NCBI RefSeq assembly: GCF_001202035.1
Contig: NZ_LGHT01000020.1
Location: 1 to 55,190, forward strand
DNA length: 55,190 nt
Origin: Pseudorhodobacter wandonensis
Lineage (GTDB): Bacteria; Pseudomonadota; Alphaproteobacteria; Rhodobacterales; Rhodobacteraceae
Direction of reading: 5' to 3'
The position numbers were made by a program, and so were the translations under genes. The notes under the pieces were generated by a model. The model ran no database searches and was not told the DNA's origin. It saw only the letters and a list, made by a program, of their open reading frames with translations. Shown piece by piece: positions 24,746-53,790 of the stretch (its first letter is position 1; every line of letters starts with the position of its first letter).

Positions 24746-25485
24746 ATGATCAGCAAAGTTTCACAGCCTCGCCTGATAGGTTTCCGGTTCCCTCGGTCCA
24801 TCATCGCCTATGCCGTTTGGGCGTACGATCAGTTTGCACTGAGCCTGCGCGATGTCGTGGATTTGTTAGCCGAACGGGGCGAGATCGTTTCGTATGAAAG
24901 CATCCGAGTGTGGTGCCAACGGTTCGGAACGCAGATGGCGGCCAAGATCCGTCACAACCGCCCGGTTCCTGCCGACAAATGGCACCTCGACGAAGTCGTG
25001 ATTTCAATTCGATGGCGAAAACACTGGCTTTGGCGTGCGATCGACGCCAACGGAGACGCGCCGAAGATCTTGATGCAAAGCCGCAGAAATGCCCATACTG
25101 CCAAGCGGTTCCTGATGAAGTTGATGAAGCGAAGAGGTGTGCCATGCGTCCTCGTGCCCCCCTCTCGTGACATTGCAGAGCAATGCACTGCCGGGCAGTG
25201 GACAAACTACGCAGTTATGGCGTGGCCGTCCGTGACCTTTGACCAAGCGTCGATTATCGTTCCCACAAGGGGTTGAACAACCGATCCGAGGCGTCGAATC
25301 GACACACGCGACGAAGAGAAAGGATCATGGGTCATTTCAAATCCCCACACAAGGCGCAGTGTTTTCAATCCGTCCATGATCAGACTTCCACCATCTTTCA
25401 TCCAAAGCGCCAGCGCTTTTCCGCAGCATCCTACCGCCAATTTCGGGCTGACGCGTTCAGCCTGCGGAACAACTATGCGGCCTAA
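24746..25485 (+). pseudogene. IS6-family transposase interrupted by a ~41-nt insertion
   Basis: The first part has the expected family sequence: FPRSIIAYAVWAYDQFALSL, VSYESIRVWCQRFG, the catalytic block KWHLDEVVISIRWRKHWLWR and LMKLMKRRGVPCVLV. Then 41-44 extra bases intervene and the family sequence resumes in another frame with DKLRSYGVAVRDL. A TGA follows almost at once (25241-25243), and then NNRSEASNRHTRRRERIM and FKSPHKAQCFQSVHDQTS appear, ending at TAA 25483-25485. The gene is therefore disabled by the insertion and by one stop. Apart from this it is well preserved, so the insertion is not simply part of a long decay. Confidence 0.85.
25157..25200 (+). repeat. Miniature hairpin insertion element, copy A (in IS6 transposase)
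   Basis: About 41 extra bases lie between the codons for VLV and DKLRSY of the IS6 transposase. The 5' end is CCCCCCTCTC, the 3' end TGCCGGGCAGTG. The centre forms CATTGC-AGA-GCAATG, with outer GTG/CAC pairing. Ends match copies B-D, while the stem sequence is different but still paired. It shifts the reading frame. Confidence 0.7.
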
Positions 25486-25546
25486 ATTTCCTCGTGATCA
25501 GGGCGCAGATCTTGGTCACGTCGCGACAGAAGGACCTGACAAAGCC

Positions 25547-25947
25547 GCGCTGCGTAAAGGCGGAGTTGGAACACCCCCAATTTGTGGTGAGATCGTCTGC
25601 AGACGTCAATTTTCGAATAAAATTCGCATAAGTATCTGTTTTAAATAAAGCAATCTGCTTTTGGCCTCACGAAAAACCCAAGCGTGAGTCTAAAAACTTA
25701 CAACTAAAGGCTGATGCTTCTTTTCCCCAAAGGTCGCGAATCTTGTGGTCCTTTCTGGTCTGCTCGACAAGATCTATGTGCGGTAACCTTTTCTTAATAA
25801 CTTTTTAGATCCGCCAATCGGTAACTTACCAAAATTTGGCTGCCAAACGCCGATTAGCGCAACAAACCGACTTTTTGCCCGCGCAAGCGGTGCGACAAAG
25901 CTTCGAGTCGTCAGCTTGAAGTACATTCACCAACGGGGGAATTTAAA
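25547..25947. other. A+T-rich upstream region of the RTX peroxidase gene
   Basis: No gene is supported here. The segment 25610-25870 is A+T-rich and is the likely promoter region of the peroxidase/secretion operon. A clear ribosome-binding site GGGGGA lies about 8 bases before the ATG at 25948. No promoter hexamers are claimed. Confidence 0.5.
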
Positions 25948-28900
25948 ATGGCTACCAGCTTTCACGTCAACGTCGAAGACCTCATGTTCATTCTGCGTCA
26001 AATCAAGATTTCAGAGGCGCATTCTGGAGGGCTTTCACTTACTCAAGCGATACAGAATGAATATGGCGGAACTGTGGCAGACGCTAATCTTGTACCTTTC
26101 GGGTTGCGCACTGTCGATGGCAGTTTAAACAACCTTGCGCCCGGCCAAGAAGGTTTTGGAGCAGCTGACCAGACATTTCCACGCATGTTGGACCCGATTT
26201 ATGTCAACGATGCCGATGGCGACAGCATCGATTTCAACGGGCCGGCGCCCGGCGGTGAAGTCGTACAGGGTAACTATGGCATCACCGGAAATGTCGTCGA
26301 CGCAGATCCACGCACAATTTCAAATCTGATTGTCGACCAGAGCGTGAACAACCCTGCCGCGATCCTTGCGGCGTTGAAATATGCGGGCATTGAAGGCTCG
26401 GATGCAAGCGCCGCGCTGGCGGCAATTCAGGCCGCGAATGCGGCCGTCAAGGCGGCTCAACAAGCCGCTGCGGCGGCAACACCGACGGCGCTGGACGGGT
26501 TGCAGAACGTTATCGACACAGAGCTTGCTGAACTTGCTATTGCGCAGGCCGCTTATGATGCCGCCGTCGCTGCAGACACTTATGCGGGGCCTGCCAATCT
26601 TGCCGCAACTTCGCAAACAGCAGCCGACGCCCTTGTCGCGGCCATGAATGTGGTTGGTTCTGCAATTTTCGGAACAATTGTGGACCAAACGGATATCGAC
26701 AATGCCTTTGCCGCAGTGACCGCTGCGCAGGCGGCACTTGCGGCTGCCACGGCTGCCACCAATGCCCTAGCTGCCTTGCCAGAGGCAGCTCAGGCACTAT
26801 CCGTGCAGGGCGAAATGGCTTCGCTGGTCACGGTTCTTCAAGCATATGCAACGGGACTTTCGCTGGGCGAACCCGTCACTGCCGGCGATGAGTTGCAGCA
26901 GGTCGTTGATGCAACACGCTCCGCCGAATTCAATGCCGTGGAAGCTGCAGCTTTGGCGACGACGCTTCAGGCTCTTGTAGACCCGCTTGGCGACGTTGCA
27001 ACGACTCTTGCCGCGCTAAACACCGCGCAAGCCGAACTTCTTGCCGCGCAGAATGCACTTGCCGCAGCCCAGAATGCTGCAGCGGATGTGATTGCGGCCA
27101 AGGAAAACCTGATCACAGTTGCAAACGATCACGACGTACAAATTGGCGCAGACGGCGGGCTCGAAATTCCGAACCTTTCGCCTGATATCGGGTTGTCACC
27201 TGCCTTCAATTCCTGGATGACATTCTTCGGCCAGTTCTTCGACCACGGTTTGGATCTTGTTCCCAAAGCTGCCAATGGCACCGTATACATCCCACTGGAG
27301 GCTGACGATCCTTTGATCGCCGGCGCAGATGGCGTGTTTGGCACTGCTGACGACTTGGACGCAAGTCTGCGTTTCATGGCTGTGACCCGCGCTGCGATCG
27401 ACGCGGACGGCAATTCGATCAACCTGACAACGCCGTTCGTCGACCAGAACCAGACCTATACCTCACATGCATCGCATCAGGTTTTCCTGCGTGAATATAT
27501 ACGCGCCGACCTAAATGATGGCAGGGGCGTGGTCACGCTGTCGACTGGTGCCCTGCTGGATGGCACAACGGCCTCGGGGTCGCTGAACGGCGCAATCGCC
27601 AACTGGGGAGAGGTAAAGGCGCAGGCGCGCGAAATGCTGGGCATTGAGTTGACAGACATGGATGTCGGCAACGTGCCTTGGTTGCGCACCGATGCTTACG
27701 GCGAACTTATCCTCAGTGCTGACGGCTATGCGCAAGTCATCACCGGGGTAGGCGCGGACGGGATACCCAACACGGCGGACGACGTGGTTGTGTCCGGAAC
27801 GTCTGCCTCTCCGGTCAACCCGACGACAGTTGGCGCGCTGCGCACGGGTCACGCCTTCCTTGATGACATTGCGCATCATGCAGCACCGGGCATGGTCGAC
27901 CATGATCACAATCCAGCAACGCCTATGGTGATGAAAACCGAGGACGTCGATGTCGACCTCAATGGCGATGGCATCATTGACGCTGCTGAAATGATTGCAG
28001 ATGACGGGATTTCCACGACCTACGACGGTGAAATGCTGGACGCGCATTTCATCACCGGCGATGGTCGTGGCAACGAGAACATTGCGCTGAGCGCCGTGCA
28101 CTCGGTTTTCCACAGCGAGCACAACCGCATTCTGGAAGAAAACAAGCACACCATTCTTGAAACCGGCGATATGGCCTTTATCAACGAATGGCTATTGCTT
28201 GATCTTACAGAGGCGCAAGTTGCTGCAATTCCGACCGATCCCGCAGCGCTGGCTACTTTCATGGACACGCTTGTCTGGGACGGCGAGCGTCTGTTCCAAG
28301 CGGCGCGCTTTACCACCGAAATGCAGTATCAGCACTTGGTGTTTGAAGAATTCGCCCGGCGCATCCAACCTGCCGTCGATCCATTCGTGTTCACCCACTC
28401 ACCTGATATCGATGCGGCCATCGTCGCTGAATTCGCGCATACCGTGTACCGCTTTGGGCACTCTATGCTCGTCGATACGGTCGACCGCTTTGACAACGAC
28501 CTTCAGTTGGTGAACGGGACCAGTGAACAGATCACTTTGATCGATGCGTTCCTCAACCCTCAGGCATTCGTCGCCAGTGGCGCCAGCCTGGAAGAGGTGA
28601 TCAGCAATATCGTCCGCGGTGCTACACGCGATGTTGGCAATGAGATGGACGAATTCGTCGTGCCTTCGCTGCAAAGCAACCTCTTGGGGCTGCCGCTTGA
28701 CCTTGCCGCAATCAATATCGCGCGTGGTCGTGATACCGGCATCCCTTCGCTGAATGAGGCGCGCAAACAGTTCTACGCAGATTACGGTCTGGCCGATATT
28801 AAGCCCTATACAAGCTGGATCGACTTTGCCCAGCACATCAAAAACCCAGCCTCGATCATTAACTTTATTGCGGCTTACGGCACCCATGCAACGATCACCG

Positions 28901-31900
28901 GTGTCGACACGATTGAAGGCAAGCGCGCCGCCGCAATGCAATTGCTGGCCGACTATGGCGATAGCGGCTCGGTTGGTCACGCCGATGCCGTTGCATTCTT
29001 GAATGCGACTGGCGTGTACAACACGATTGAACTTGGTGGCATGAACAATGTCGATTTCTGGATCGGCGGCCTTGCCGAGGAACTGAATGAATTCGGCGGC
29101 ATGCTCGGCTCGACCTTCAATCTGGTATTCGAATTCCAGATGGAAAAGCTGCAAACTGGCGACCGTTTCTATTACCTTAGCCGGACACAAGGTACCAACC
29201 TGCTCAACCAGTTGGAGCCAAACACGTTCACCGACCTTGTTATGCGGAACTCAACGCTGGGTGACGACTATGCGACCCATCTTAATCCAAACTTGTTCGT
29301 AACACCGGACCATATTTTTGAATTGGACGGTGCGATTGCGCAAACGGATTACAATGCCGAGAATACCGCATCGCAAGCCGATGGTGGCTTTGACCCGGTT
29401 CACGAAGACCCCTTCTTGCAATTGATCGACCCAAAGGTTGTGCGCGTTAGCGGTACTGTGGGTCCGGATGGTCATTACTCAGGTGGCTACCTCAAATACA
29501 GTGGCGGTGAGCATGTTGTGCTTGGCGGTACCGAAGGGAATGACACGCTGATTGGTGACAAAGGTATTGATGGAATCTGGGGTGACGGCGGCAATGACTA
29601 TATCAACGCCGGCATGGAATCCGACAACGTCTTTGGCGGCGACGGTGACGACATCATCGAAGACCCCTTCGGCGATGACGTGTTGCGCGGTGAAGGCGGC
29701 AATGACGTCATCAGCGCGGGGTCGGGTCTCGACCTGATTTTTGGCGGCGACGGTCAAGATTACATCATCGTTGGCCAAGACGATAAAGAAGCGTTTGGCG
29801 ACGAAGGTGACGACTTTATCCTTGGCGGCACTGGTAACGACTTCTTGCTGGGCAACGAAGGCAATGACTGGATTGAAGGTGGCGATGGCTTTGACGTCAT
29901 TGCGGGTGACAACTCGGAACTGTTCTTTAACTCGTCGATCGTCGGCCATGACGTCGCTTGGGGTCAGTCCAACGACCAAGACTACGACCTTGAATCCGGT
30001 GATGATATTGCACTTTCCGGCCCTGGCATCCAGCGATTTGAAGGGATGTTTGGCTTTGACTGGGCCATTGGCAAATATGATGTCGAGGGTGTCAAGTTCG
30101 ACTTCGCAGTCCCAATTTTTACCACGATTGTAACGGATATCTTGAAAGACCGGTTTGACCAAATCGAGGCAGCCTCGGGTTGGGTTTACGATGATATTCT
30201 TGATGGAGACGACCGTGGCCACACCAATGGTGGCTCGTCTGCACCGGATTCAGTACCGGTCGAGTTGTTCGCTGACCACATCCTGAATCAAGAAGGGATC
30301 GACAGGATCGACGGGCTGCGCACGCTTCTGAATGGCGGTCTTGAAAATGTGGCTGGGAATAACCTCGTCGCCATGAACTCCATCTTCGGAACCCAATCGG
30401 CAACCTTCCAAAACGGGAACATCTTGCTTGGCGGTGACGGGAATGACGCGCTGCGTGGCCGCGGTGGCTACGACATTCTGGACGGCGATGCCTGGCTGAA
30501 TGTGCGTATCAAGATCATGCACGACGGTGTCGAATACTCGGCAGAATCGATGAACACCGATGAAAATGTCGCAGGGGAATTTTCCGGCTTTGTGTTCAAT
30601 GTGGTCGATGGCGTGCCAGATCTTACAAGCAAAGCTTTCGGTGGCCGCACGCTGAACTCTCTGATGCTTGACGGAACAATTAACCCCGGCAACCTTAGCA
30701 TCGTACGTGAGATCAAATACGATGACACCAATGTTTCCGGCGCCGGCCGCAATGTGGATACTGCGGTGTTCCAAGGCACACGTGACGAATATGACATTGA
30801 AGGCATCACGCAAAACCAAAACACTGGCGCCTATACTGGCACTGCGCGTGACGTAGATGGCGATGGCTTCATCAAAGTGCGTGACCGTGACACGGGTGCG
30901 ATTGGTGCGACGGTCGTTCAGATCATAGACGGCGTGGCAACCCAGGTCACTCTTAACAGCCGTGGCGCGTTGACAGACGATATCGATCTGCTGCGGAACA
31001 TGGAGCAGCTGCAGTTCGCAGATCAGACTATTGTGGTAGGCGTCCCTGCGAACAGCCTTGCCACGGGGACTGTCACGATCGACGATCAGACGCCAATCGT
31101 GGGTCAAGTATTGACCGCGACGCTGTCGAACTTTGCCGATGCGGACGGCCTGACGCTTGACACAAATGGTCTGCCTGTCGGTCTGAATTTCGAATGGCAA
31201 ACCACGGAAGTGGGTAGCAATGCCGGCTGGACCACGATTCAGACAAGTCTTACCTACACCGTGCGTCCGGTCGACCCCGGCCATATCCTGCGCGCCGTGG
31301 CGGTGTTCAAGGATGATACCGGTGTTACTGAGCGGATCGCTTCCGCCCCAACTGCCGATCCGACGGCACCTTTCATCGTTGCCGAAAACAGCGCCGCGGG
31401 GACGGTCGTCGGCCTGACGATCCCGTTCAGCGTGGATTACGACCCGCAGCCAATCAACGGGCAACCACCTGCGGATGTGGATCTGGCAACGATTCACCAC
31501 GAAATTGACCCGAACAACAATGCGGGCGGCCGGTTCACGGTTATATCGAACGGTTTTGATATCAACGGTTTCCCGCGCTTCTCGCTGGTGGTCAACCCGG
31601 CTCTCAACAATACGGGGCCGCTGGATGCGCTGGATACACGGGTGTTGCTGAACTACGAGGCACCAGTACATACGCCGGCCAACCAGTCGCACCAAAACCC
31701 AGACAACCAGTATGAGGTCGTCATCAATACTTATGACGTACCCGGCGGCACGCTGGTGGCAGTGCGGCAGTTCACCGTGTTGCTGACCGATGTGGCCGAA
31801 GGGACTGTTGACGCAGCACCTGTGCTGGATCTGGTCGGGATCACGACGGTTACCAGTGGCAGCTACCGTGAAGAATTCACCGCTGACAGCTATACCGGAA

Positions 31901-34900
31901 TTGACCAACCCTCGCCTTCGAACACGGCTTGGACGACGGACTGGGTCGAAGGTGGCGGCGAAAATGACAACTCATCGAACGGTGGCGACATTGAAATCGT
32001 CAGTTTCAACGGCAGCAATCAGCTTCGGTTTGATGATGGCGTTGATGGTGGTGAGAATATCACCCGCGCAGTCGATCTGTCCGGCGCAACTTCGGCGACG
32101 TTATCGTTCAACTATTTCATGGGTGATCTAGAAACCGGTGAAAACATAGTCGTCGAAGCGCGGTTGGGGAATGGCAACTGGGTCGAAGTCGGCACGGAAA
32201 ACTTGTTCAATGGTAATAGCAACAACGGTGGCCGCACGGTCAGCGGCGTATTCGAGTTCGATTTGCCACAAGCGGTGATCGGCGCTGCAACCGAGATACG
32301 GTTCCGTGCCGAAGGATCTTGGAACAATGGCGATGCATTCTATATCGACAACGTCAACATCGCCTATTCTTCCACAACCACGACCACGGCACCCCCTTAT
32401 GGCTACGACACAGCCTACACCGAAAATGGCGCTGCCGTTGCAATCGCTGACAATCCGGCGATAGCGGATGCGGACAACGCGTTCGTCATGGGTGCCACGG
32501 TCAAGCTGACCAACGCCCAAGCGCAAGACGTGTTGTCGATTGCAGGCGCCTTGCCTGCGGGCATCACGATGAGCTTTGGTCCTGCTGTGGCGGGTGAGAT
32601 TACCATGTATCTGGCTGGTCCAACATCATTTGCAGCGATGCAGACCGCAATTGGCCAGGTTCGGTTTGAAAACACCGGCGACAACCCGACGGCCATCGCC
32701 CGTATAATCAACGTGACGGTCAACGACGGCGAGAAGGAAAGCAATTTCGCAACCGCGACGATCAACGTGACGGAAATCTCAGAACCGTTCGTGGCGGGCG
32801 ATGACCGTATCGTGACGAATATCGGCAACGGTCCTGCAATCATCGTCCCGGAATGGGCGTTGCTGGACAATGACATCGACCCAGACGGACCTGCGGCAGT
32901 GGCGGATATCACCGCCATCAGCGGTGCAAGCAGCCTGACCGCCACTCTGGCACCGGCTGGCAGCGTTTCAATCGTCGATACCGGGAATGGCTTCTTCAAC
33001 ATCGGCGGCTCGTTCAACTATTCCGCGAACTATGGTGCTCAGTCGGATGTTGCCAATGTTCAGGTAGTTCGTGACACCCTAGGGGCGATCAGCGGCAACA
33101 ATGGCAACGACATCCTTGTCGGCGATGGTGGCAGCAGCACTTTCGATGGAGGCGCTGGCAATGACATTATCTTTGCAGGGGCTGGCGACGACACTATCAT
33201 CTGGAGTGCTAACAATAACGGCACGACGGATGGCCACGATTTTGTGGATGGTGGCGATCATTCCAACCCGGCGACATCCGGCGACGTCGTCATCACCGGA
33301 AATGGCGGTGTCACGGGAAATCGGCTGAACTTTACCGACAGCACCGCTGGCAACGAAACGATCAGTCGCGCGGTCGCCCTGAACCCGTCAGAAACGGCTA
33401 CGCTCAGCTTCACTTGGAGACTCGACGATACTGACGGTCCGTTCTTTATCTTCCCCGGTGACGACACGGATGTTCAGGCCTTTGACGGGACAAACTGGGT
33501 GACTATCGCTACTCTTGATGGTGGAATTGCCGAGGATACGGACCACAACTTCTCGCAGGCGCTGACCGCGCCGTTTATCGGCGCACACACTGCAATCCGG
33601 TTCGTCTCACCCAACCTAAGCAATGGCGAAAATATCTACATCGACAACGTTCAGATTGCCACACCAAGCGGCACCTACCGCGACGAGTTTGGCACCCAAG
33701 CCTACAACAACTCGAACGGCACTCTGCCATGGACGACCTCATGGACAGAGACGAACGAACCCGCCGGTGCGGACACCTTTGTCATCAACGGCAATGACGA
33801 GGACGAAACCTTCCGTGTCTATTCACGGGCGGCGGCTCTCGTTGTCGCCAGTCTTGCGGCGGCGATAAGGGCGGATGCCGAAATCATCATCACGCGGAAT
33901 GTTGATGGTGGTGAGCCGGATGCCGACGATATTATTGCCCAGCTCGACAATGTTGAAGAGATCATCATCAACACCAATGGCGGCAACGACACTGTTATCC
34001 CGATCGGAAACTTCGATCCGACCAGTCTTGCCTATAATACCATCTGGGTGGACGGCGGCACGGGTGACGACACTGTCGACATCGCGGGACTGGCATCTAA
34101 TCACCGCGTCGTGTTGACCACCGACGGAGGGAATGACCGGATCGTTGGAGGGGACCGGGCGCAGGATATGGTCCAAAACCCTGACGGCACTGAAGCGGAA
34201 ACCGAAGAAGCAGAAGAGCCAGAAGAGAACAATGCTTCGGGCGAGGATACTTCAGGGTCACCAGAAAATCCTGAGCAGGATACAGGTACCTCTGACCAAC
34301 CTGCCGGGCAACCCAACAGCAACGGAGGGACTTCAGGTGCCGATGTGCTGACGGGCACCGAGCAAGGCGAAACGATCATGTCCTTGGGCGGGAACGACAT
34401 TGTCTTCGCTGCAGGAGGTGCTGACAACGTCCTGGCAGGTGCCGGCAAAGACATGGTCTTTGGTGACAGCGGCAATGACCGCATCTTCGGCGATGGCGGC
34501 GACGACTTCCTAAATGGTGGAGGCGGCAATGACATGGTTGTCGGTGGCGCTGGCAATGACCACTTTGTGGCCGAGGCTGGCGATGGCAACGACACCTACT
34601 ATGGTGACGATGTCGATGGCGGCACGGGCAATGATACGCTCGACATGTCTGCTATTACCGCAAATATCAGTGCGGATCTCGGAAATGGCTATATGGAGCG
34701 CGGCGGTGTCTACAGCAGCGAAACCGGCCATGACACGCTCTGGAATGTCGAGAATATCGTCACTGGTTCCGGTGACGACATCATCACTGCGAGCAATTCC
34801 GTCAATGTGATTGATGGTGGCGATGGCAATGACATCTTCCGCTTTAACTCGGTTGCTGCCGCCAACGGCGATACAATCGCCAGCTTCCAGCCCGGCGACA

Positions 34901-35130
34901 AGATCGACCTAAGTGGGTTCGATGCAAATAGTAGCGCTGCGGGTCAACAAAGCTTCACACTGGTATCTGGTGGGATCACTGGCGGAGGCCAACTGGCGAT
35001 CACGCATGAAATGCATGACGACGGCGATTATACGGTCATCTCCGGCAATGTGACGGGCGGTGAAGACGCCGACTTCAAGATCAACGTAAGGGGCACGCAC
35101 GAACTGACGGCGTCCGATTTCAACCTCTGA
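25948..35130 (+). CDS. Giant secreted RTX protein with animal-type haem peroxidase domain (MopA-like)
   Basis: This 3060-residue protein has no N-terminal signal. Residues about 150-385 form an Ala-rich, probably coiled-coil segment. The haem peroxidase domain (about 390-1090) has the distal His433 in FFGQFFDHGLDLVPK, HSVFHSEHNRILEE, the proximal His838 in YRFGHSMLVD, and NIARGRDTGIPSLNEAR, the family signature. Calcium-binding GGxGxDxxx repeats occur at about 1193-1320, 2381-2418 and 2795-2900. Between them are jelly-roll/cadherin-like domains, two similar blocks beginning SGSYREEF/SGTYRDEF, and an acidic linker (about 2740-2795). RTX repeats and the adjacent exporter indicate type I secretion. 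Relatives include the Mn(II)-oxidising peroxidases (MopA) of Aurantimonas, Erythrobacter and Roseobacter. Mn oxidation here is inference. Confidence 0.92.
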   Translation: MATSFHVNVEDLMFILRQIKISEAHSGGLSLTQAIQNEYGGTVADANLVPFGLRTVDGSLNNLAPGQEGFGAADQTFPRMLDPIYVNDADGDSIDFNGPAPGGEVVQGNYGITGNVVDADPRTISNLIVDQSVNNPAAILAALKYAGIEGSDASAALAAIQAANAAVKAAQQAAAAATPTALDGLQNVIDTELAELAIAQAAYDAAVAADTYAGPANLAATSQTAADALVAAMNVVGSAIFGTIVDQTDIDNAFAAVTAAQAALAAATAATNALAALPEAAQALSVQGEMASLVTVLQAYATGLSLGEPVTAGDELQQVVDATRSAEFNAVEAAALATTLQALVDPLGDVATTLAALNTAQAELLAAQNALAAAQNAAADVIAAKENLITVANDHDVQIGADGGLEIPNLSPDIGLSPAFNSWMTFFGQFFDHGLDLVPKAANGTVYIPLEADDPLIAGADGVFGTADDLDASLRFMAVTRAAIDADGNSINLTTPFVDQNQTYTSHASHQVFLREYIRADLNDGRGVVTLSTGALLDGTTASGSLNGAIANWGEVKAQAREMLGIELTDMDVGNVPWLRTDAYGELILSADGYAQVITGVGADGIPNTADDVVVSGTSASPVNPTTVGALRTGHAFLDDIAHHAAPGMVDHDHNPATPMVMKTEDVDVDLNGDGIIDAAEMIADDGISTTYDGEMLDAHFITGDGRGNENIALSAVHSVFHSEHNRILEENKHTILETGDMAFINEWLLLDLTEAQVAAIPTDPAALATFMDTLVWDGERLFQAARFTTEMQYQHLVFEEFARRIQPAVDPFVFTHSPDIDAAIVAEFAHTVYRFGHSMLVDTVDRFDNDLQLVNGTSEQITLIDAFLNPQAFVASGASLEEVISNIVRGATRDVGNEMDEFVVPSLQSNLLGLPLDLAAINIARGRDTGIPSLNEARKQFYADYGLADIKPYTSWIDFAQHIKNPASIINFIAAYGTHATITGVDTIEGKRAAAMQLLADYGDSGSVGHADAVAFLNATGVYNTIELGGMNNVDFWIGGLAEELNEFGGMLGSTFNLVFEFQMEKLQTGDRFYYLSRTQGTNLLNQLEPNTFTDLVMRNSTLGDDYATHLNPNLFVTPDHIFELDGAIAQTDYNAENTASQADGGFDPVHEDPFLQLIDPKVVRVSGTVGPDGHYSGGYLKYSGGEHVVLGGTEGNDTLIGDKGIDGIWGDGGNDYINAGMESDNVFGGDGDDIIEDPFGDDVLRGEGGNDVISAGSGLDLIFGGDGQDYIIVGQDDKEAFGDEGDDFILGGTGNDFLLGNEGNDWIEGGDGFDVIAGDNSELFFNSSIVGHDVAWGQSNDQDYDLESGDDIALSGPGIQRFEGMFGFDWAIGKYDVEGVKFDFAVPIFTTIVTDILKDRFDQIEAASGWVYDDILDGDDRGHTNGGSSAPDSVPVELFADHILNQEGIDRIDGLRTLLNGGLENVAGNNLVAMNSIFGTQSATFQNGNILLGGDGNDALRGRGGYDILDGDAWLNVRIKIMHDGVEYSAESMNTDENVAGEFSGFVFNVVDGVPDLTSKAFGGRTLNSLMLDGTINPGNLSIVREIKYDDTNVSGAGRNVDTAVFQGTRDEYDIEGITQNQNTGAYTGTARDVDGDGFIKVRDRDTGAIGATVVQIIDGVATQVTLNSRGALTDDIDLLRNMEQLQFADQTIVVGVPANSLATGTVTIDDQTPIVGQVLTATLSNFADADGLTLDTNGLPVGLNFEWQTTEVGSNAGWTTIQTSLTYTVRPVDPGHILRAVAVFKDDTGVTERIASAPTADPTAPFIVAENSAAGTVVGLTIPFSVDYDPQPINGQPPADVDLATIHHEIDPNNNAGGRFTVISNGFDINGFPRFSLVVNPALNNTGPLDALDTRVLLNYEAPVHTPANQSHQNPDNQYEVVINTYDVPGGTLVAVRQFTVLLTDVAEGTVDAAPVLDLVGITTVTSGSYREEFTADSYTGIDQPSPSNTAWTTDWVEGGGENDNSSNGGDIEIVSFNGSNQLRFDDGVDGGENITRAVDLSGATSATLSFNYFMGDLETGENIVVEARLGNGNWVEVGTENLFNGNSNNGGRTVSGVFEFDLPQAVIGAATEIRFRAEGSWNNGDAFYIDNVNIAYSSTTTTTAPPYGYDTAYTENGAAVAIADNPAIADADNAFVMGATVKLTNAQAQDVLSIAGALPAGITMSFGPAVAGEITMYLAGPTSFAAMQTAIGQVRFENTGDNPTAIARIINVTVNDGEKESNFATATINVTEISEPFVAGDDRIVTNIGNGPAIIVPEWALLDNDIDPDGPAAVADITAISGASSLTATLAPAGSVSIVDTGNGFFNIGGSFNYSANYGAQSDVANVQVVRDTLGAISGNNGNDILVGDGGSSTFDGGAGNDIIFAGAGDDTIIWSANNNGTTDGHDFVDGGDHSNPATSGDVVITGNGGVTGNRLNFTDSTAGNETISRAVALNPSETATLSFTWRLDDTDGPFFIFPGDDTDVQAFDGTNWVTIATLDGGIAEDTDHNFSQALTAPFIGAHTAIRFVSPNLSNGENIYIDNVQIATPSGTYRDEFGTQAYNNSNGTLPWTTSWTETNEPAGADTFVINGNDEDETFRVYSRAAALVVASLAAAIRADAEIIITRNVDGGEPDADDIIAQLDNVEEIIINTNGGNDTVIPIGNFDPTSLAYNTIWVDGGTGDDTVDIAGLASNHRVVLTTDGGNDRIVGGDRAQDMVQNPDGTEAETEEAEEPEENNASGEDTSGSPENPEQDTGTSDQPAGQPNSNGGTSGADVLTGTEQGETIMSLGGNDIVFAAGGADNVLAGAGKDMVFGDSGNDRIFGDGGDDFLNGGGGNDMVVGGAGNDHFVAEAGDGNDTYYGDDVDGGTGNDTLDMSAITANISADLGNGYMERGGVYSSETGHDTLWNVENIVTGSGDDIITASNSVNVIDGGDGNDIFRFNSVAAANGDTIASFQPGDKIDLSGFDANSSAAGQQSFTLVSGGITGGGQLAITHEMHDDGDYTVISGNVTGGEDADFKINVRGTHELTASDFNL

Positions 35131-44209: not shown

Positions 44210-44254
44210 AAGGGCTGCATCCTTTATTCACTTTGCATCAGGGATAAACTCTGT

Positions 44255-44275: not shown

Positions 44276-44291
44276 ATTCAATGGATGTTCC

Positions 44292-44732: not shown

Positions 44733-44744
44733 AATAATCCGGGG

Positions 44745-44758: not shown

Positions 44759-44818
44759 CCACGCGATCCCTAATAGACCTAGTCTGAACCCCATGTCCTT
44801 GCGCGAACGGAATATTCC

Positions 44819-46444: not shown

Positions 46445-46448
46445 CCCC

Positions 46449-47177: not shown

Positions 47178-47338
47178 CCCATGATTTCGCGCTGTTTCTG
47201 GCCAAGACCGTGGGGCTGTTCTACCTGATGGGATTTTTCATCATCATCGTGATCCACACCTATCGCCCCTCTCGCAAGGCCGCAGCGGATCGGGCCGCAA
47301 ACGCGATCCTGACAGCGGAGGATAAACCATGTCCGTAA
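47174..47338 (+). CDS. ccoQ: cbb3-type oxidase small subunit
   Basis: This 54-residue protein has one membrane helix (TVGLFYLMGFFIIIVIHTY, about residues 11-29) followed by the family-type basic and Glu-rich tail (RPSRKAAADRAANAILTAED). The ATG overlaps the ccoO stop and the gene overlaps ccoP by 10 bases. CcoQ stabilises the complex. Confidence 0.88.
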   Translation: MTHDFALFLAKTVGLFYLMGFFIIIVIHTYRPSRKAAADRAANAILTAEDKPCP

Positions 47339-48207
47339 CCGAACGCGACATATTCTCGGGCTACATGACCACAGGGCATGACTGGAACGGGATAAAGGAA
47401 CTGAATTCCCCCATCCCGCGCGTTGTACTGTGGTTCATGCTGGTCACACATGTTTATGCGGTGATCATCTGGACGCTCTATCCGGCGTGGCCTTTGGGGA
47501 ACACGCACAGCATGGGGCTTTTGGGCGGTGACCAAAAAATCGCCGTGGCCGCCGATGTTGCCACAGCCACAGCCGCCCGCGCAGATTGGACTACCGCACT
47601 GGCCACCGAAGACTTTGACACCATCCGCGCCAACCCCGACCTGATGGGCCGCGCGCTGGCCACTGCCGGACAGCTTTTTGGTGAAAATTGCCAGGCTTGC
47701 CACGGCGCGGGCGGTATGGGCGGCCCAGGCTTTCCCCGTTTATCGGATGATATCTGGCTGTGGGGCGGCACGGCAGAGGATATCACGGTGACCTTGCGCT
47801 ATGGCATCAACAGCCCACATCCCGACACGCATGTTGCACAGATGCCCGCCTTTGGCCGGGATGGCCTGCTATCAGGCCCAGAGATTGCCGTGCTGACAGG
47901 CTATGTCCAGACTCTTGGCGCGGGGGTGGTTCCAGATGACCCGTCTGAAGGTGCCGTGCTCTTTCAGGAAAACTGCGCCGCGTGCCACGGCGCCGATGCA
48001 AAAGGTGTGGAAGGCCTTGGCGCACCGAACCTGACCGATGCCGACTGGATATATGGCGGCGATTCGGCCACCATCCGCCTTACCCTGTTGAACGGCCGCC
48101 AAGGCGTTATGCCCGCATGGCAGCCGCGCCTGACAGATGCCGAAATCCGCATGCTGGCGCTGTATGTCGAAGGCCTGCACACCAAGGGAGCGGAGGATGC
48201 GCAATGA
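47329..48207 (+). CDS. ccoP: cbb3-type oxidase di-haem subunit III
   Basis: This 292-residue subunit has an N-terminal membrane helix (PRVVLWFMLVTHVYAVIIWT) and the N-terminal family motif HDWNGIKELNSPIPR. Two c-type haem sites follow: CQACH near residue 122 and CAACH near residue 217. Axial-Met segments are VAQMPAF and GVMPAW. It receives electrons from the cytochrome c pool. It overlaps the following small gene by four bases. Confidence 0.95.
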   Translation: MSVTERDIFSGYMTTGHDWNGIKELNSPIPRVVLWFMLVTHVYAVIIWTLYPAWPLGNTHSMGLLGGDQKIAVAADVATATAARADWTTALATEDFDTIRANPDLMGRALATAGQLFGENCQACHGAGGMGGPGFPRLSDDIWLWGGTAEDITVTLRYGINSPHPDTHVAQMPAFGRDGLLSGPEIAVLTGYVQTLGAGVVPDDPSEGAVLFQENCAACHGADAKGVEGLGAPNLTDADWIYGGDSATIRLTLLNGRQGVMPAWQPRLTDAEIRMLALYVEGLHTKGAEDAQ

Positions 48208-48359
48208 CCCGATCTCCCCGGTTTTGGATCGCCGTGGCCTTTGCTGCCTTGGCCTTGGTGATCGGCGCGAACTGGCATCTGGTCACTGTGGCCTTCACCT
48301 CGCAACCCGGTTGTGTGACGACCGCACCCGACATGGCAGCCGCAAAGCCGGGCTGCTGA
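48204..48359 (+). CDS. Small single-helix membrane protein after ccoP, function unknown
   Basis: This 51-residue protein has one hydrophobic segment (FWIAVAFAALALVIGANWHL, about residues 7-26) and two Cys in the tail (PGC, KPGC). The ATG overlaps the ccoP stop (ATGA), so translation is coupled. I do not recognise a family. The Cys-containing tail outside the membrane could be metal-related, but this is only a guess. Confidence 0.7.
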   Translation: MTRSPRFWIAVAFAALALVIGANWHLVTVAFTSQPGCVTTAPDMAAAKPGC

Positions 48360-48371
48360 AAGGGAGAACCC

Positions 48372-49181
48372 ATGCTTGAACCCCTTCCCGCACTTGAAGC
48401 GCGTCACCGCCCGCCAGACCGTTTCGCACGAAACCTTTCGCAAACGGCGGCGCTGGATTGGCTGGCGGCAGGCTGGCGCGACTTGCGCCAAAGCCCCGCC
48501 ACCAGCCTGATCTACGGATTGGCCATAACGCTTTTATCAGTGGCCGTGATTGCGGGGCTGGTCCAGGTGGGCCTGAGCAACCTGATCTTTCCCGCCCTGT
48601 CGGGGTTTCTCGTCATCGGCCCGCTGCTGGCCATCGGCCTGTATGAAAAAAGCCGCTGCTTGGGGTTGGGCACGAGCCCCACGTTCGCGCAAATGCTGTT
48701 CGTGCATCCCCGCGCGGGCGGGCAAGTCGCGTTTGCAGGTCTGCTTTTGTGCTTGCTGATCATGCTATGGTTGCGCGCCGCCGATCTGCTTTATGCGCTG
48801 TTTTTCGGGATGGTGGCATTTCCGGGGTTTGACAATCTGGCCAGCCAATTGCTGACCACGCCGCGCGGCTGGGCGATGATTGCAACCGGATCGGCCATCG
48901 GCGGGCTGTTTGCGTCCTTTGCCATGGCGATCAGCCTGTTTTCCATCCCCATGCTGCTGGAACGCCGCGTTGATGCGCTGACGGCACTTGGCACATCCTT
49001 TGCCATGACCACCCAGAACCTACGTGCCGTGCTGCCATGGGGCGCGATTGTCACCCTTGGGTTCGCATTGTCGGCTGCCACCGGGTTGTTGGGTTTGATC
49101 GTGATCTTTCCGCTGCTCGGCCACGGCACTTGGCACGCATGGCTTGCCCTGCGCCCACACAAGCAGGAGGAGGCGAAATGA
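48372..49181 (+). CDS. DUF2189 integral membrane protein
   Basis: This 269-residue protein has six or so hydrophobic segments, including SLIYGLAITLLSVAVIAGLV and FPALSGFLVIGPLLAIGLYE. The latter, with the following region (YEKSRCLGLG), is typical of DUF2189. The family is often found near cytochrome oxidase genes in Rhodobacterales; its function is not established. It overlaps ccoS by four bases (ATGA), so it is part of the cbb3 operon. Confidence 0.87.
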   Translation: MLEPLPALEARHRPPDRFARNLSQTAALDWLAAGWRDLRQSPATSLIYGLAITLLSVAVIAGLVQVGLSNLIFPALSGFLVIGPLLAIGLYEKSRCLGLGTSPTFAQMLFVHPRAGGQVAFAGLLLCLLIMLWLRAADLLYALFFGMVAFPGFDNLASQLLTTPRGWAMIATGSAIGGLFASFAMAISLFSIPMLLERRVDALTALGTSFAMTTQNLRAVLPWGAIVTLGFALSAATGLLGLIVIFPLLGHGTWHAWLALRPHKQEEAK

Positions 49182-49357
49182 ACTACTACTTCCTCATCCC
49201 CGTCTCAATCGGCCTTGGCCTGACAGGTTTGGCCGCATTTTTCTGGGCCATGCGCCATAATCAATACGAAGACCTTGACGGTGCCGCCGCCCGCGTGCTG
49301 AACGCCCCCGACAAACCTCTCACCACCCTGCCTGCAAAGGACACGACCCATGGATAA
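49178..49357 (+). CDS. ccoS: cbb3-type oxidase assembly protein
   Basis: This 59-residue protein has one N-terminal membrane helix (YFLIPVSIGLGLTGLAAFFW) followed by the diagnostic NQYEDLDGAAARVL segment. CcoS is needed to mature the cofactors of the cbb3 oxidase. The rest of the usual ccoGHI assembly set is absent, so this operon must rely on copies elsewhere. Confidence 0.9.
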   Translation: MNYYFLIPVSIGLGLTGLAAFFWAMRHNQYEDLDGAAARVLNAPDKPLTTLPAKDTTHG

Positions 49358-49583
49358 CTGGCTGCCCACCCTGATCACACCGACACCGACAGAAGGCTAT
49401 AACCTTGCGCTGAAGCTTTCACGCATGACCATCAAATTAACGCAACCCGATGCCGCCGCGCGCGAACGGATGCGCCCGGATTATGCCGAGGATGCAAACT
49501 CCCTGATTGCGGTCAGCGCAGTGGTCGCGACCCATTTCGCCACCATCGCCGCCGCCAACGGCCACTGGCGCGAAACCAAATGA
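49350..49583 (+). CDS. Short soluble protein in cbb3 operon, unknown function
   Basis: This 77-residue protein begins MDNWLPTLITPTPTEGYNLA and overlaps the ends of both neighbours (8 bases with ccoS, 4 bases with the next gene). The tight coupling argues for a real gene. It has no membrane segment, metal motif or recognised family. Confidence 0.65.
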   Translation: MDNWLPTLITPTPTEGYNLALKLSRMTIKLTQPDAAARERMRPDYAEDANSLIAVSAVVATHFATIAAANGHWRETK

Positions 49584-49849
49584 GCAGTATTACGGTTACG
49601 GCCCAAGGCTTTGAGGTGGACGCAATCCTTGTCGCCGCAGCTTTCGGGCTGGACCCTTCGCAGTTGCAAGAAAAAATGCGCGCAGGCGAAGTGACCAGCC
49701 TGTGCGAAAAGGGTGAGGGCGATGATGAAGGCCGCTTTCGCCTGACCTTTCGGCATGATGGGCACGCGCTGAGGCTGACCGTAGATGCGGAAGGCAGCGT
49801 TCTGTCGCGCGCAACCTTTCCCGCAGGGCGTGTAAAGCCCGTGGATTAA
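49580..49849 (+). CDS. DUF6522-like small protein
   Basis: This 89-residue protein has a beta-rich pattern (SSITVTAQGFEVDAILVAAA, FGLDPSQLQEKMRAGEVTSL, FRLTFRHDGHALRLTVDAEG). It is clearly similar to the first 85 residues of the protein at 50151-50609. I believe this corresponds to DUF6522, a small family near respiratory genes; the family name is from memory. It is the last gene of the cbb3 operon. Confidence 0.7.
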   Translation: MSSITVTAQGFEVDAILVAAAFGLDPSQLQEKMRAGEVTSLCEKGEGDDEGRFRLTFRHDGHALRLTVDAEGSVLSRATFPAGRVKPVD

Positions 49850-50150
49850 GGTCCAAAGGCAACTTTGGTATCGTTGGAGCCTTTACGCGTTCGACAAAAT
49901 GAGTTTGCGCTTGCGTTTTGGTCCATGCAGGCGTCCCGTGTAACAGCAGCTGATTGACCAGCTGTTGCCAAACATCTCGAAATCAGATGGTCGCTGGAAA
50001 GCTGTCTTCCTGTCCTATCGCCAGTCAGCATCCGCGCGCGAACTTCATGAGAGGTTCGTAAAATGTTGAGCGTTGTCAAAAGGCGCTGGGGTATTGCTGC
50101 GAAAGCCGGGTCCATGGCAGCACCACACGACAAAGCATGAAGAGGTATCG
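49850..50150. other. Intergenic, no gene recognised
   Basis: This 300-base gap separates the cbb3 operon from the second DUF6522-like gene. Scattered short frames have no family signal. Confidence 0.5.
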
Positions 50151-50609
50151 ATGGAAAAAATCACACTTCCCGCCGACAGATTTGAGCCTGATATGACTGC
50201 AGTGGCCGAGGCATTTGACATCAGTACCAACGAGTTGCATGACGGCATAGAAATTGGCGCGATCAGCCGGTGGCTTGAAGTGGGGACCGGCGACGCGGAT
50301 GACAAACCTCATCAGATCTTCGCCTCTGCTGTGCTTGGGATCAGGGTCGATGTAGATGAACACGGCAACGTGCAATCGACCAGCAAATACGATATAATCA
50401 GCGCCGCACCGCAATCGTATCCAGTTTCAGGCTCCGACAAAGGCGCGGTGCAAAAGGCCTTGGCCACCCCTTTGCAACATGGCCCTGATACCACCCACAA
50501 AACCCACATCGATGCACTTCTTGACGAGGCGCTGAACGAGAGCTTTCCCGCCAGCGATCCTATGGCCATCAGCGTGCCCCGCTTGCGGACGAGGTCTGAT
50601 GATGAATGA
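50151..50609 (+). CDS. DUF6522-like protein with acidic C-terminal extension
   Basis: This 152-residue protein has an N-terminal domain (MEKITLPADRFEPDMTAVAE, FDISTNELHDGIEIGAISRW) paralogous to the 49580-49849 protein. It then has a separate tail ending HIDALLDEALNESFPASDP, a short motif common at the C-terminus of small alphaproteobacterial stress proteins. The start at 50151 follows GAAGAGG and matches the paralogue's start; an in-frame upstream ATG is not supported. Confidence 0.7.
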   Translation: MEKITLPADRFEPDMTAVAEAFDISTNELHDGIEIGAISRWLEVGTGDADDKPHQIFASAVLGIRVDVDEHGNVQSTSKYDIISAAPQSYPVSGSDKGAVQKALATPLQHGPDTTHKTHIDALLDEALNESFPASDPMAISVPRLRTRSDDE

Positions 50610-50639
50610 AGGTTCTGTTTCAGAAACCATTCACATGCA

Positions 50640-51492
50640 TTGGGCCACATAATGGTCGAACACTCTGACGAAGTGGACGAAATCCCCCGCCTGAAATGGC
50701 CGCGTCGCTTTCCGGTGCCAAGCGATTTTGCTGTTGCAAAGGCATCTCGGATCACCGAAGGGAAATTCCGGCCCGCGCCCGAGGGGGCGACCCGGATCGC
50801 GACCTTGCGCATTCACCGCTTCAATCCGGACGGTAAGGACGGCCCGCAGATGGACACCTTCCGCGTTGATCTGGACGATTGCGGGCCGATGCTGCTGGAT
50901 GCGCCGATCTGGATTAAGTCCAGGTTCGATGCGACGCTGACCTTGCGCCGCTCTCGCCGCAAAAGGTTTGCGGGCCTTGCGCGATGACCATTGACGGCAC
51001 CAACTGGACGGTTTGCACACGCGCCATGGATGAGTTGTCCGATCCTGTCACCATCTACCCGCTGGTCAACCTGCCGGTGATCAAGAATCTGATCACCGAT
51101 CAGACGCAACTTTTCGCTCAGCACGTCCTGACCGAGCCCTTGCTGAAAACCGAAACGCCTGCGCCAGAGCATGAGCGCCTGCAGTCGGTTGCGCAGCGCA
51201 CAGCCCTTGACGGCTATTACGAATATATCATGTGTTTTTGCTGCACCTCGGGATGTCCCAGCCATTGATGGAACGGCGACCGTTTCCTTGGTCCCGCCGC
51301 CTTAATCACCTCTTGGCGCTGGCTGGCCGACAGCCGCGACGAGAGTCAGGTTGCGCGATTGGAGGTGCTGAACGAGCCGTTCCGGCGTTATCGCTGCCAC
51401 ACGATCCTGAACTGCACCCGGACCTGCGCGCGCGGCTTGAACCCCGGCAAGGCCATAGCCGAAGTGGAGCGGTTGAAGATTGAAGCGTTAGC
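50640..51492 (+). pseudogene. sdhB: Succinate dehydrogenase iron-sulphur subunit, decayed second copy
   Basis: The frame from 50640 gives SRITEGKFRPAPEGATRIAT and MDTFRVDLDDCGPMLLDAPI, standard SdhB. At the [2Fe-2S] loop the first Cys codon has become Arg and one base is lost, so the frame ends at 50987; the sequence resumes in another frame as MTIDGTNWTVCTRAMDELSD. The second Fe-S segment reads CFCCTSGCPSH followed by TGA where Trp is expected ([12 protein letters not shown]), and the frame continues with [20 protein letters not shown]. So there are one frameshift, one stop and a lost ligand. No sdhA, sdhC or sdhD is nearby; the IS66 left end follows at 51493. Confidence 0.88.
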
Positions 51493-51571
51493 GGTGCGCC
51501 CAGCCCACCTTCCTTGTGCGCCGCTGATCTGAGATTCAGCCCCCATGGATGGATGATCAGGGAGGTTCTCC

Positions 51572-51961
51572 ATGGAGCGCTCAACGGAGTTTCTCAGCAA
51601 CATTGATATGGTTGTGTGGCCGCGTGGTCACCGCCGGTGGCCGGATGCAGTGAAGGCGCAAATTGTGGCCGAGACGTTGGTTGAGGGTGCCTCGGTGGGC
51701 GCGGTTGCGCGGCGTTATGACATGCGGGCCAATCATTTGTCGGAATGGCGGCGCATGGCGTGCGAGGGCAAGCTGGTTTTGCCCGCTGTGACCGAAGAGG
51801 CGAGCTTTGCGGCGTTGGTTGTGCGCGAGGAAGTTGATGCGGTTCCTGAACCTGCGCCCCCGTTGGATCTGCTCTGTGGCAGCGTCCATGTGCGATTGGA
51901 CGCAAACACATCTGCGGCACGCATTGCCGAGATTGTCCGTGCCTTGAATGCGCCCTCATGA
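51572..51961 (+). CDS. tnpA: IS66 TnpA accessory protein
   Basis: This 129-residue IS66 ORF1 protein has a helix-turn-helix region (VKAQIVAETLVEGASVGAVA, RRYDMRANHLSEWRR) and the typical C-terminus DANTSAARIAEIVRALNA. The frame is intact, and its stop overlaps the tnpB start (ATGA). Its exact role in transposition is not settled for the family. Confidence 0.92.
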   Translation: MERSTEFLSNIDMVVWPRGHRRWPDAVKAQIVAETLVEGASVGAVARRYDMRANHLSEWRRMACEGKLVLPAVTEEASFAALVVREEVDAVPEPAPPLDLLCGSVHVRLDANTSAARIAEIVRALNAPS

Positions 51962-52354
51962 TGTTCCCTTCGAACCGAGTGCGGATCGTTGTGGCGACCA
52001 AGCCTGTCGACTTCCGCAAAGGGCATGACGGGCTCGCAGCGCTGATTAAGAACGAGCTGCGCAAGGATCCGTTCACGCGTTGCCCGGCAGGCGATTTGCA
52101 AAGTAAATCTGCCGTGAGGGGGGACAGTTTTTGTGTTCCGCTCAAGACGGGCAGATCGGATTAAGCTGCTGTATCGGGATGGCACTGGTTTGGTCATGGC
52201 TTACAAAAGGTTGGAGGAGCATATCTTCACCTGGCCCGCGATCAAAGATGGGCTGATGGCCTTGAACCACGCTCAGTTTGAAGTGCTGTTCTCGGGTTTA
52301 GACTGGCGCAAAGTAAGGGCTTTGTCAGTGCGCCCCCCCACTGCGGCAGAGTGA
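51958..52354 (+). pseudogene. tnpB: IS66 TnpB, split by a 43-nt hairpin insertion
   Basis: The N-terminal half reads MMFPSNRVRIVVATKPVDFR and GHDGLAALIKNELRKDPFT, as in IS66 ORF2. After 43 extra bases (52078-52120) the family sequence resumes in another frame as TVFVFRSRRADRIKLLYRDG and continues to RAL...PPTAAE with its normal stop at 52352-52354. No other lesion is seen, so removal of the insertion would restore a normal TnpB. Confidence 0.87.
52078..52120 (-). repeat. Miniature hairpin insertion element, copy B (in tnpB, reverse orientation)
   Basis: In element orientation (minus strand) it begins CCCTCACGGCA, has stem GATTT / AAATC around loop ACTTTGC, an outer CGGCA/TGCCG pairing with a GCC bulge, and ends TGCCGGGCAACG. 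Its boundaries are fixed by the interruption of the TnpB reading frame between DPFT and TVFVF. It shifts the frame by 43 bases. Confidence 0.75.
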
Positions 52355-53134
52355 ATCAGGTTGTCTTTTGTAGGGGTGCTGAGGTGTTGGAAATGATAGT
52401 CATTCCCCATGTCAAAACTTGCCGATCTCCCTGATGATGTTGAAACCCTGAAAGCGCTTCTTGTTGCCTCAGAGAACCGCAATCTGCGCAAGCAGGATCG
52501 TATCGATCAGTTGGAGAAACTGGTTTCTGACTTCAAACGTGCCCTGTTTGGCGCAAGGTCTGAGAAGGCCGACCCGGAGCAATATGAGCTGGCGCTGGAA
52601 GATATCAAAACGGCTATGGCGGCGGTCCGCGCTGAAGATGACGCGGTGGATCCGCCTGCATCGCGCCCGGCAAAACCGCGCAATACCAACCGTGGCTCAC
52701 TGCCCAAGCATCTGCCCCGCATTGAAGAGGTGATTGCGCCCGATAGCATGACCTGCGGCTGCGGCGCTGAACGGCATGTGATCGGTGAGGACATCAGCGA
52801 ACGCCTCGACATCGTTCCTGCGCAGTTCCGTGTGATTGTCACCCGCCGCCCGAAATATGCCTGCTGATCCTGCACCAATGGCGTGGTGCAAGCGCCTGCA
52901 CCAGCGCGCCTGATCCCGGGCGGCATGCCAACTGATGCAACAGTGGCGCATGTTTTGGTGAGCAAATACGCAGATCATCTGCCCCTGTATCGTCAGGCGC
53001 AAATTTACAGCCGCCAAGGTATCGATCTGGATCGTTCCACTCTCGCCGGATGGGTCGGCAAAGCGGCCTATGAGCTGCGGCCCGTGTTTGAAGCGTTGAT
53101 GGCCGATCTGAAGCAGTCGACCAAGCTATTCATG

Positions 53135-53175
53135 CCCTCCCGGCCGATTGCCCTGCAATCGCCTGCTGGGTAACA
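53135..53175 (+). repeat. Miniature hairpin insertion element, copy C (in tnpC)
   Basis: These 41 extra bases begin CCCTCCCGGC, carry the perfect inner stem CGATTGC-CCT-GCAATCG, have outer CCCGGC/GCTGGG pairing with a bulge, and end TGCTGGGTAACA. They lie exactly between the codons for LFM and DET of the transposase. Similar in layout to copy B, with different stem bases. Confidence 0.75.
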
Positions 53176-53751
53176 GACGAGACCCGCGCCCCGGTGCTCG
53201 ATCCGGGTAAACGCAAAACCAAAACTGGATACTTCTGGGCACTTGCCCGCGATGACCGCCCATGGGGCGGCACGGCTCCACCCGGTGTGGCCTTCACATA
53301 TGCGCCGGGACGGTCCGGCCAATATGCTGATGACATTTTGAATGGCTTCACGGGCATCCTCCAAGTGGACGGGTATGCAGGATACAATCGCCTACTCAAA
53401 CGTGTCGATGACAAGGTTGGGTTGGTATACTGCTGGGCTCATGCGCGGCGCAAACTGCATGAGGTTGCGCAAGCGGGCTCAGCCCCCATCGCTGAGGCGG
53501 GATTGAAACAGATCGCTGCACTCTACCAGATCGAAAAGAGTATCCGTGGCTTGACCGCCGAGGAACGTCTGGGCGCACGGCAAGACCGCTCAGCACCATT
53601 GATCGTCGCGTTTGAGGCGTGGCTCACGACCAATCGAGCGCGCCTCTCAGCCAAGGCCCCTCTCGGCGAAGCGTTCAAATACATTGCAAAATACTGGGAT
53701 GGACTGTGCCTGTTTCTGACTGACGGTCGCATCGAGATGGACAATAATACC

Positions 53752-53790
53752 CCCTCTCATCGATACTTTGTATCGATTGCCGGGCAATGG
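53752..53790 (+). repeat. Miniature hairpin insertion element, copy D (in tnpC, in frame)
   Basis: These 39 extra bases begin CCCTCTC, have the perfect stem ATCGATA-CTTTG-TATCGAT, and end TTGCCGGGCAATGG. They interrupt the conserved MDNN...ERTIRPIALNRKNA block without shifting the frame. As an in-frame insertion into a coding region they resemble Rickettsia palindromic elements in behaviour. Confidence 0.75.

Follow-up and report, generated by a model that had tools for sequence, protein, structure and literature searches.

Four hairpin insertions in an IS6 remnant and an IS66

The window analyzed here, a stretch of 55,190 nucleotides from Pseudorhodobacter wandonensis (contig NZ_LGHT01000020.1), carries four short hairpin elements, copies A to D, which interrupt transposase genes of insertion sequences (IS). 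Two IS families are hit, IS6 by copy A and a single IS66 by copies B, C, and D. The original prediction, made from the letters of the window, had claimed these four insertions in two families, and it is upheld by gaps relative to an intact IS66, by reading frames, and by pattern counts against shuffled sequence. The elements and their host genes are as follows (bit scores refer to the covariance model described below).

25160..25200, + strand: copy A, 41-nt hairpin element in an IS6-type transposase remnant (pattern match; 60.8 bits)
52078..52120, − strand: copy B, 43-nt hairpin element in IS66 tnpB (43-nt gap relative to the intact IS66; 45.3 bits)
53135..53175, + strand: copy C, 41-nt hairpin with the GGGTAACA end type in IS66 tnpC (41-nt gap; 48.9 bits)
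53752..53789, + strand: copy D, 38-nt hairpin in IS66 tnpC (gap of 35 + 4 nt; 35.7 bits)
24746..25500 (approximate extent), + strand: IS6-family transposase remnant carrying copy A (translation; Pfam DDE_Tnp_IS240)
51572..51961, + strand: IS66 tnpA, without hairpin (open reading frame, ORF; aligned to tnpA of L333)
51958..52354, + strand: IS66 tnpB, split by copy B (397 nt minus 43 gives 354, the length of intact L333 tnpB)
52409..54015, + strand: IS66 tnpC, split by copies C and D (1607 nt minus 80 gives 1527, the length of intact L333 tnpC)

The intact reference, L333, is an IS66 of Sulfitobacter sp. SK025 with three annotated genes. The window IS66 aligns to it at 84.9% identity, with gaps of 43, 41, and 39 (35 + 4) nt and one further indel only, of 6 nt and in frame. 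The inserted bases are thus not native to the intact relative, and no target duplication flanks them. The limits predicted for copies B and C are exact. Copy D ends at 53789, its net gain of 39 nt being the 38-nt element plus one extra base 3' of it. For copy A, whose limits come from the IS6 reading frame only, the predicted left limit was not confirmed: the CCC at 25157-25159 belongs to the flank, and the element starts at 25160.

The Pfam domain DDE_Tnp_IS66 matches 53194-53751, within the window tnpC, and DDE_Tnp_IS240 matches the ORF flanking copy A (L007:1078-1500). An in-frame TGA at 52865-52867 is an extra lesion of tnpC. The pattern CCCTC-N20..36-TGCYGGGYA has four matches in the window versus 0.02 expected from 100 dinucleotide shuffles. 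The stem sequences differ in all four copies, yet each stem pairs. The same hairpin type as copy B lies at the same site in Pseudorhodobacter turbinis (G007), and a related hairpin occupies the site of copy C in a different IS66 of P. wandonensis (C34:7045).

Structure of the hairpin family

Across the family, CCCTCTC forms the left end of the element and TGCCGGGCARYG the right end; between them lies a 6-9 bp stem, frequently with a single base bulged out, and a short loop. Its length is mostly 37-45 nt, 41 nt being the commonest. The conserved ends, first proposed from the four window copies, are borne out by the copies in the own genome and in relatives; they are not inverted copies of each other. 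At the right end, a common class reads GGGCARYG and a minority class GGGTAAYA.

The stem sequence is highly variable while its pairing is kept. Indeed, among 29 chosen relatives of the 41-nt class, eight of the nine pairs changed on both sides, coherently with the covariation that had been proposed. In this set 98.9% of cells pair, versus 68.3% after shuffling and at most 49.4% in slid versions, a value that leans towards the structure since the relatives were taken from matches already inspected for pairing. With the same choice among paired matches, the element is a short imperfect palindrome with a conserved paired stem.

Two unusual forms were also noticed. At G007:C1:929082-929126 (L292), a single stem lies between two opposed right ends (CCACTGCCCGGCA...TGCCGGGCAACG), and there is no CCCTCTC end. 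In the window, a lone TGCCGGGCAACG motif without a left end lies at 54188-54199, below detection by the covariance model at E ≤ 0.1.

Distribution in P. wandonensis and in related genomes

The exact pattern had 12 matches in the 3.89 Mb searched of the P. wandonensis genome (G000), and the reversed pattern had none. Ten of the 12 showed a stem; the matches L011 and L012 were dropped, having no stem or being too long. The covariance model search that accompanied the original prediction as a proposed check returned further copies here, and pattern searches did so in related Rhodobacterales. Of the two results that would have counted against the prediction, the same bases in intact IS relatives or a lack of more copies in the genome, neither was seen. 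The model was built from 29 copies and, with 150 of 3969 first-pass candidates scored in the own genome, recognized 16 copies at E ≤ 0.1; the union with the pattern search gives 18 places found.

Among related genomes, 62 of 147 contain the exact pattern, and matches are most abundant within the same family. The highest counts, which include a few chance matches, were 66 in G007, 32 in G015, 27 in G075, 19 in G008, 17 in G072, and 15 in G006; the reversed pattern gave 0-1 matches in G007, G015, and G075. When one genome per species was scanned, at least 119 stretches matched, about 100 of those listed being titled Rhodobacterales. Among the listed stretches from outside this order, several are chance matches and one lies in an IS3 gene of Vreelandella (L083). 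Copies were also noticed in two model strains, in Ruegeria pomeroyi DSS-3 (NC_006569.1:92479, L419) and in Dinoroseobacter shibae (NC_009958.1:2482-2829). Phage records searched with one 41-nt copy gave no match.

In the counts of places given below, elements with <5 inner pairs (length and ORF work) or <6 inner pairs (target counts and end/target link) are left out, and so are loci with short flanks in the ORF work.

The interrupted genes

In the own genome, the translated flanks place all 18 elements within transposase genes, of IS1182 (5), IS66 (4), IS5 (4), IS3 (3), IS6 (1), and IS110 (1); these names were assigned by eye, except for the Pfam-checked IS6 and IS66 of the window. In P. turbinis (G007, second contig NZ_CP039965.1), 47 of 48 non-redundant places lie in IS genes (41 by cluster, 6 by eye), the remaining one, L224, having no assignment. 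In this genome, L205:5935-7563 (G007:C1 95435-97062) holds five hairpins in about 1.6 kb of adjoining IS remnants.

Over all genomes there are 237 non-redundant places, 18 of which were judged by eye to be chance matches, and 166 of the 237 fall in eight protein clusters of at least four members, none of which contains a match judged chance. Pfam on representatives of seven clusters gave rve/HTH_21, DDE_Tnp_IS66, DDE_Tnp_1, DDE_Tnp_1_6, rve, Y2_Tnp, and rve, while the eighth, IS256-like, was named by eye; clustering was by single linkage, so that some IS families are mixed and perhaps a few members are wrong. Many of the other 71 places were read by eye as IS110, IS21, IS630, IS3 orfA, IS5, or IS6; four have too little flank and about 15 have no assignment. 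In the eight clusters, 89 elements are oriented with the gene and 77 against it (approximate values, the frames having been chosen by similarity).

Annotated plasmids were searched with two 41-nt queries, and among the 60 of 112 and the 60 of 139 records listed, most overlap no listed gene, in a gene table that leaves out pseudogenes and a record set with many near-duplicates. The remaining records listed overlap transposases or hypothetical proteins, or carry no annotation. Finally, among 30 IS66 loci from 295 genomes, accepted family hairpins were found only in the own copy (L386); a loose regular expression marked further loci among the 30, and these were not counted.

Insertion precision and target choice

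The hairpins are inserted exactly. Besides the IS66 gaps given above, alignment to intact IS3 gave gaps of 38, 40, 38, and 38 nt and alignment to intact IS5 gaps of 37, 41, and 37 nt, and no target duplication was seen at the insertions. Apart from these gaps, the coding sequence of the three copies (IS66, IS3, and IS5) has no indel that shifts the frame.

Insertion prefers C^GATGR. Over 230 places, which include a few chance matches, the base before the element is C in 71%, and the bases after it are G in 77%, A in 65%, T in 57%, G in 58%, and then G or A in 79%. Read on the other strand, the flank is CATC in 56, CGTC in 18, and TGTC in 16 of the 230 places. This is a fixed motif beside one end, present as a preference rather than an absolute rule, and it is linked to the sequence of the element. 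Indeed, 14 of 16 elements of the GGGTA type (one of the 16 being a chance match) follow a G, versus 11 of 240 of the GGGCA type (Fisher p = 1e-14). This link is not tied to one stem or one IS family, so the element end takes part in target choice. Mutual information between element positions and flank reached z 24 for the end/target link and at most z 11 for everything else; a guide located inside the stem was rejected on these weaker values.

Multiplication of hairpin-bearing copies

Hairpin-bearing IS copies have multiplied within genomes. An IS3 with four hairpins has six copies in G021, namely L240 and five others that share 99.3-99.8% identity with it; among the matches scored (40 of 44 candidates), no full-length copy without hairpins was found. 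G007 has five copies, complete or partial, of an IS5 with three hairpins, each carrying the hairpins in whatever parts are present. An IS3 of G083 carries six insertions of 39-43 nt, five of them recognized by the model, plus a 1-nt insertion. Orientation is mixed inside one gene: −, +, + in the G007 IS5, and two and two in the G021 IS3.

In the absence of constraint, the ratio of replacement to silent changes would be expected to be about 2.5-3. Between hairpin-bearing copies, the counts, all small, were 12:3 for the G021 IS3, 16:9 for the G083 IS3, and 12:8 for the G007 IS5; the sets of G083 IS5 (18:9) and G075 IS5 (25:4) were left out for poor alignment to the reference. The polymorphism looks near neutral, and we read the hairpin-bearing copies as dead copies moved in trans and not as carriers of silent inserts. 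A function kept after insertion was considered for tnpB, where window and G007 sequences, both with the hairpin at site 633, have a ratio of non-synonymous to synonymous divergence (dN/dS) of 0.045 at dS 0.68. We rejected it: the hairpin differs at just 2 of 43 bases, so that the insert need not have come down from a shared ancestor, and the tnpB of L204 has a 1-nt deletion.

A single-strand mobile element as the favored explanation

The explanation that we favor, holding it with about as much doubt as confidence, is that the hairpins are a non-autonomous miniature mobile element of Rhodobacterales, similar to repetitive extragenic palindromic (REP) sequences, which moves as a folded single strand through a trans-acting enzyme. 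In this model the element would fold as a single strand, and the enzyme would recognize the hairpin together with the conserved ends (CCCTCTC and TGCCGGGCARYG) and join the element between C and GATGR without duplicating the target. On the other strand, this would amount to joining 3' of CATC- or CGTC-type tetranucleotides, as in IS200/IS605 elements and tagged REPs. The insertion would break the transposase, and the broken IS would still be copied, probably in trans. The exact joins, the hairpin, the motif on one side only, and the end/target link agree with single-strand transposition as generally understood for IS200/IS605 elements and REPs, and from them we infer a single-strand (HUH-type) chemistry.

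Several observations weigh against this explanation. On Y1 as the enzyme, the evidence points both ways. A profile check of 147 genomes found the Y1 transposase (PF01797) in 20, and its presence in the hairpin-bearing G006, G015, G052, G063, and G072 counts in favor; no PF01797 gene, and so no cognate Y1 (TnpA/RAYT) enzyme, was found in the hairpin-rich G000, G007, G021, G075, and G083, and G023, G037, and G062 have Y1 but no pattern match. A Y2/IS91 transposase is present in six of nine genomes of the genus, with 10, 12, 2, 15, 66, and 19 pattern matches, versus 1, 5, and 1 in the three genomes without it. It was nevertheless rejected as the mobilizer: G021 has no Y2, and the IS91-like ends inspected by eye in G000, G007, and G043 are unlike the hairpin. 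An autonomous element with the same right end was also considered in G007, where TGCCGGGCARYG has 80 matches versus 6 for the reversed control, and rejected; the spare matches fetched looked like degenerate hairpins or chance, and inspection of 60 bases upstream of every spare right-end motif revealed no gene-bearing element with these ends. Insertion itself may take place in genomes other than those rich in hairpins.

Another difficulty concerns the targets: the weak target preference does not by itself account for transposase genes being hit. Some hairpin-bearing copies also have other lesions, namely the tnpB deletion of L204, and 1-nt indels in L233 and in the G083 IS3.

Strict IS specificity is opposed by intergenic-looking members of 42-45 nt in G017, G360, G361, and G362, several of which lie beside terminator-like sequence with flanks conserved beyond the element, and by the R. 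pomeroyi copy, which is outside listed genes.

The intergenic-looking 42-45-nt members with conserved flanks and downstream terminator-like sequence are L424, L434, L428, L438, L446, L426, L436, L444, and L039. It is possible that they represent an ancestral REP form.

Alternative explanations

The elements also reuse sites, with 34 recurrent sites over all places. This could reflect homing or recombination between IS copies, in which new insertion is rare and hairpins spread mainly through transfer to the corresponding site of a homologous IS, for instance when palindromic loops in heteroduplex DNA escape mismatch repair. Indeed, among same-site pairs with flanks 60-90% identical, 13 of 85 have near-identical hairpins versus 2.2% of 3384 other pairs, which is about seven times more frequent (p = 1e-7, the pairs not being independent). 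We consider homing alone unlikely, because it does not give the different hairpin types (two or more) found at 23 of the 34 recurrent sites, nor is it expected to produce an end/target link across IS families. One case that speaks for it is the IS66 of S. pontiacus (L334), 99.4% identical to L333: over 2.35 kb the two differ by 13 bases and three hairpins, with no other indel. All three hairpins look degenerate and older than the L333/L334 split. At two of the three sites, L204 of P. turbinis (85.6% identical) has hairpins of matching type, one of them degenerate in the same way. The L334 flanks nevertheless agree with hairpin-free L333 to within a few bases; around the shared degenerate insertion, L334 follows L333 up to 2 bases from its left side and 13 from its right. 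On these alignments, either L333 would have lost three hairpins exactly or L334 would have received them exactly. Precise loss, by which L333 shed three old hairpins and elements can excise and restore the gene, would be compatible with single-strand mobility, and the age of the hairpins and the two sites common to L204 speak for it. We rate it as rather improbable, given that it rests on one pair that homing into L334 fits too, and that the two multi-copy IS searched within their genomes had no near-identical hairpin-free copy.

The concentration in transposase genes admits other accounts. An ordinary REP-like element could insert anywhere, the bias arising from survival in dispensable DNA and from spread as an IS passenger. 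The intergenic-looking members agree with this, and so do the 29 of 30 IS66 loci, all but the own one, without accepted hairpins; yet many intergenic copies outside IS would be expected in G000 and G007, where they are 0 of 18 and at most 1 of 48, and we give this account a small share of probability. That a host defense tags or breaks transposons by inserting hairpins into transposase genes is doubtful to us. The near-total confinement to IS genes in these two genomes and the six insertions in the G083 IS3 are what it would predict, but no candidate system was found, several genomes have amplified IS copies that are loaded with hairpins, and intergenic-looking members exist. Least credible by far is an insert that, like an intron or a bypass element, would be taken out of the RNA or skipped during translation, the "processed or bypassed" insert of the original prediction: the frames of several IS are otherwise open, but the elements occur in both orientations even within one gene and the polymorphism after amplification is near neutral, where a single orientation and retained function would be expected.

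Relation to known palindromic and mobile elements

The CGTC-tagged REPs of alphaproteobacteria, as described in PMC3733652, resemble the present hairpins in being palindromes of 20-40 nt with a variable paired stem and an unpaired tag at one end, and they too lack a dedicated transposase. Changes of their tag from CGTC to TGTC or CCTC are reported there, and RPE-4 and RPE-6, Rickettsia palindromic elements, are counted among them. Their stem, with AT in the first two positions and a CCA tail, is unlike that found here. Published tags are GTAG or CGTC, and our hairpins have a CRTC-like flank. REPs lie mostly between genes, whereas all 18 own-genome places are inside IS genes.

Rickettsia palindromic elements are likewise palindromes inserted within genes, and they are kept in frame in host proteins. 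The likeness proposed in this respect is not supported: the present insertions, as a rule not multiples of three in length, lie in IS genes and disrupt their reading frames. A short hairpin inside a coding gene is also found in translational bypass elements (T4 gene 60 and the byps of yeast mitochondria), but our elements occur in both orientations and show no sign of constraint at the protein level. Miniature inverted-repeat transposable elements have terminal inverted repeats and target duplication, both absent here. IS200/IS605 elements and their PATE and REP derivatives share the hairpin, the lack of target duplication, the short one-sided motif, and the element-linked target choice, on the usual account of their mechanism; the difference is that several hairpin-rich genomes have no PF01797 enzyme. 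In IS that target REPs, such as ISPpu9, IS and palindromes are also closely associated, but for these it is the IS that enters the palindrome, whereas here the palindrome enters the IS.

The element had been called undescribed, and in the open-access literature (subscription papers and preprints being outside the scope) we found no description of palindromes in Rhodobacterales transposase genes; the passages searched of PMC3646047 and PMC13386836 do not mention palindromes or hairpins.

Most bacterial palindromic repeats avoid genes; this family instead enters the genes of other mobile elements, and the interrupted transposases span DDE, DEDD, and HUH types. Speculatively, and with a low probability of being right in full, it would be a mobile hairpin with an end that helps to pick the site, living in transposase genes across nearly all IS families, and its precise homing and leaving would make this 40-nt sequence a reversible cross-family brake on transposition. 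If targeting is true, the family would represent a previously unseen form of natural control over insertion sequences; if survival and hitch-hiking are true, the hairpins would be a dense record of the exchange and loss of short inserts among IS copies. Because element end and target base change together, the chemistry of insertion can be put to the test.

Other features of the window

An Rfam scan of positions 51500-54400 found no family reaching its cut-off; a weak CRISPR-DR10 match at 53470-53509 (21.3 bits versus a cut-off of 39) is probably due to chance. Soon after the IS6 remnant, an ORF of 3060 codons extends over positions 25948-35130.

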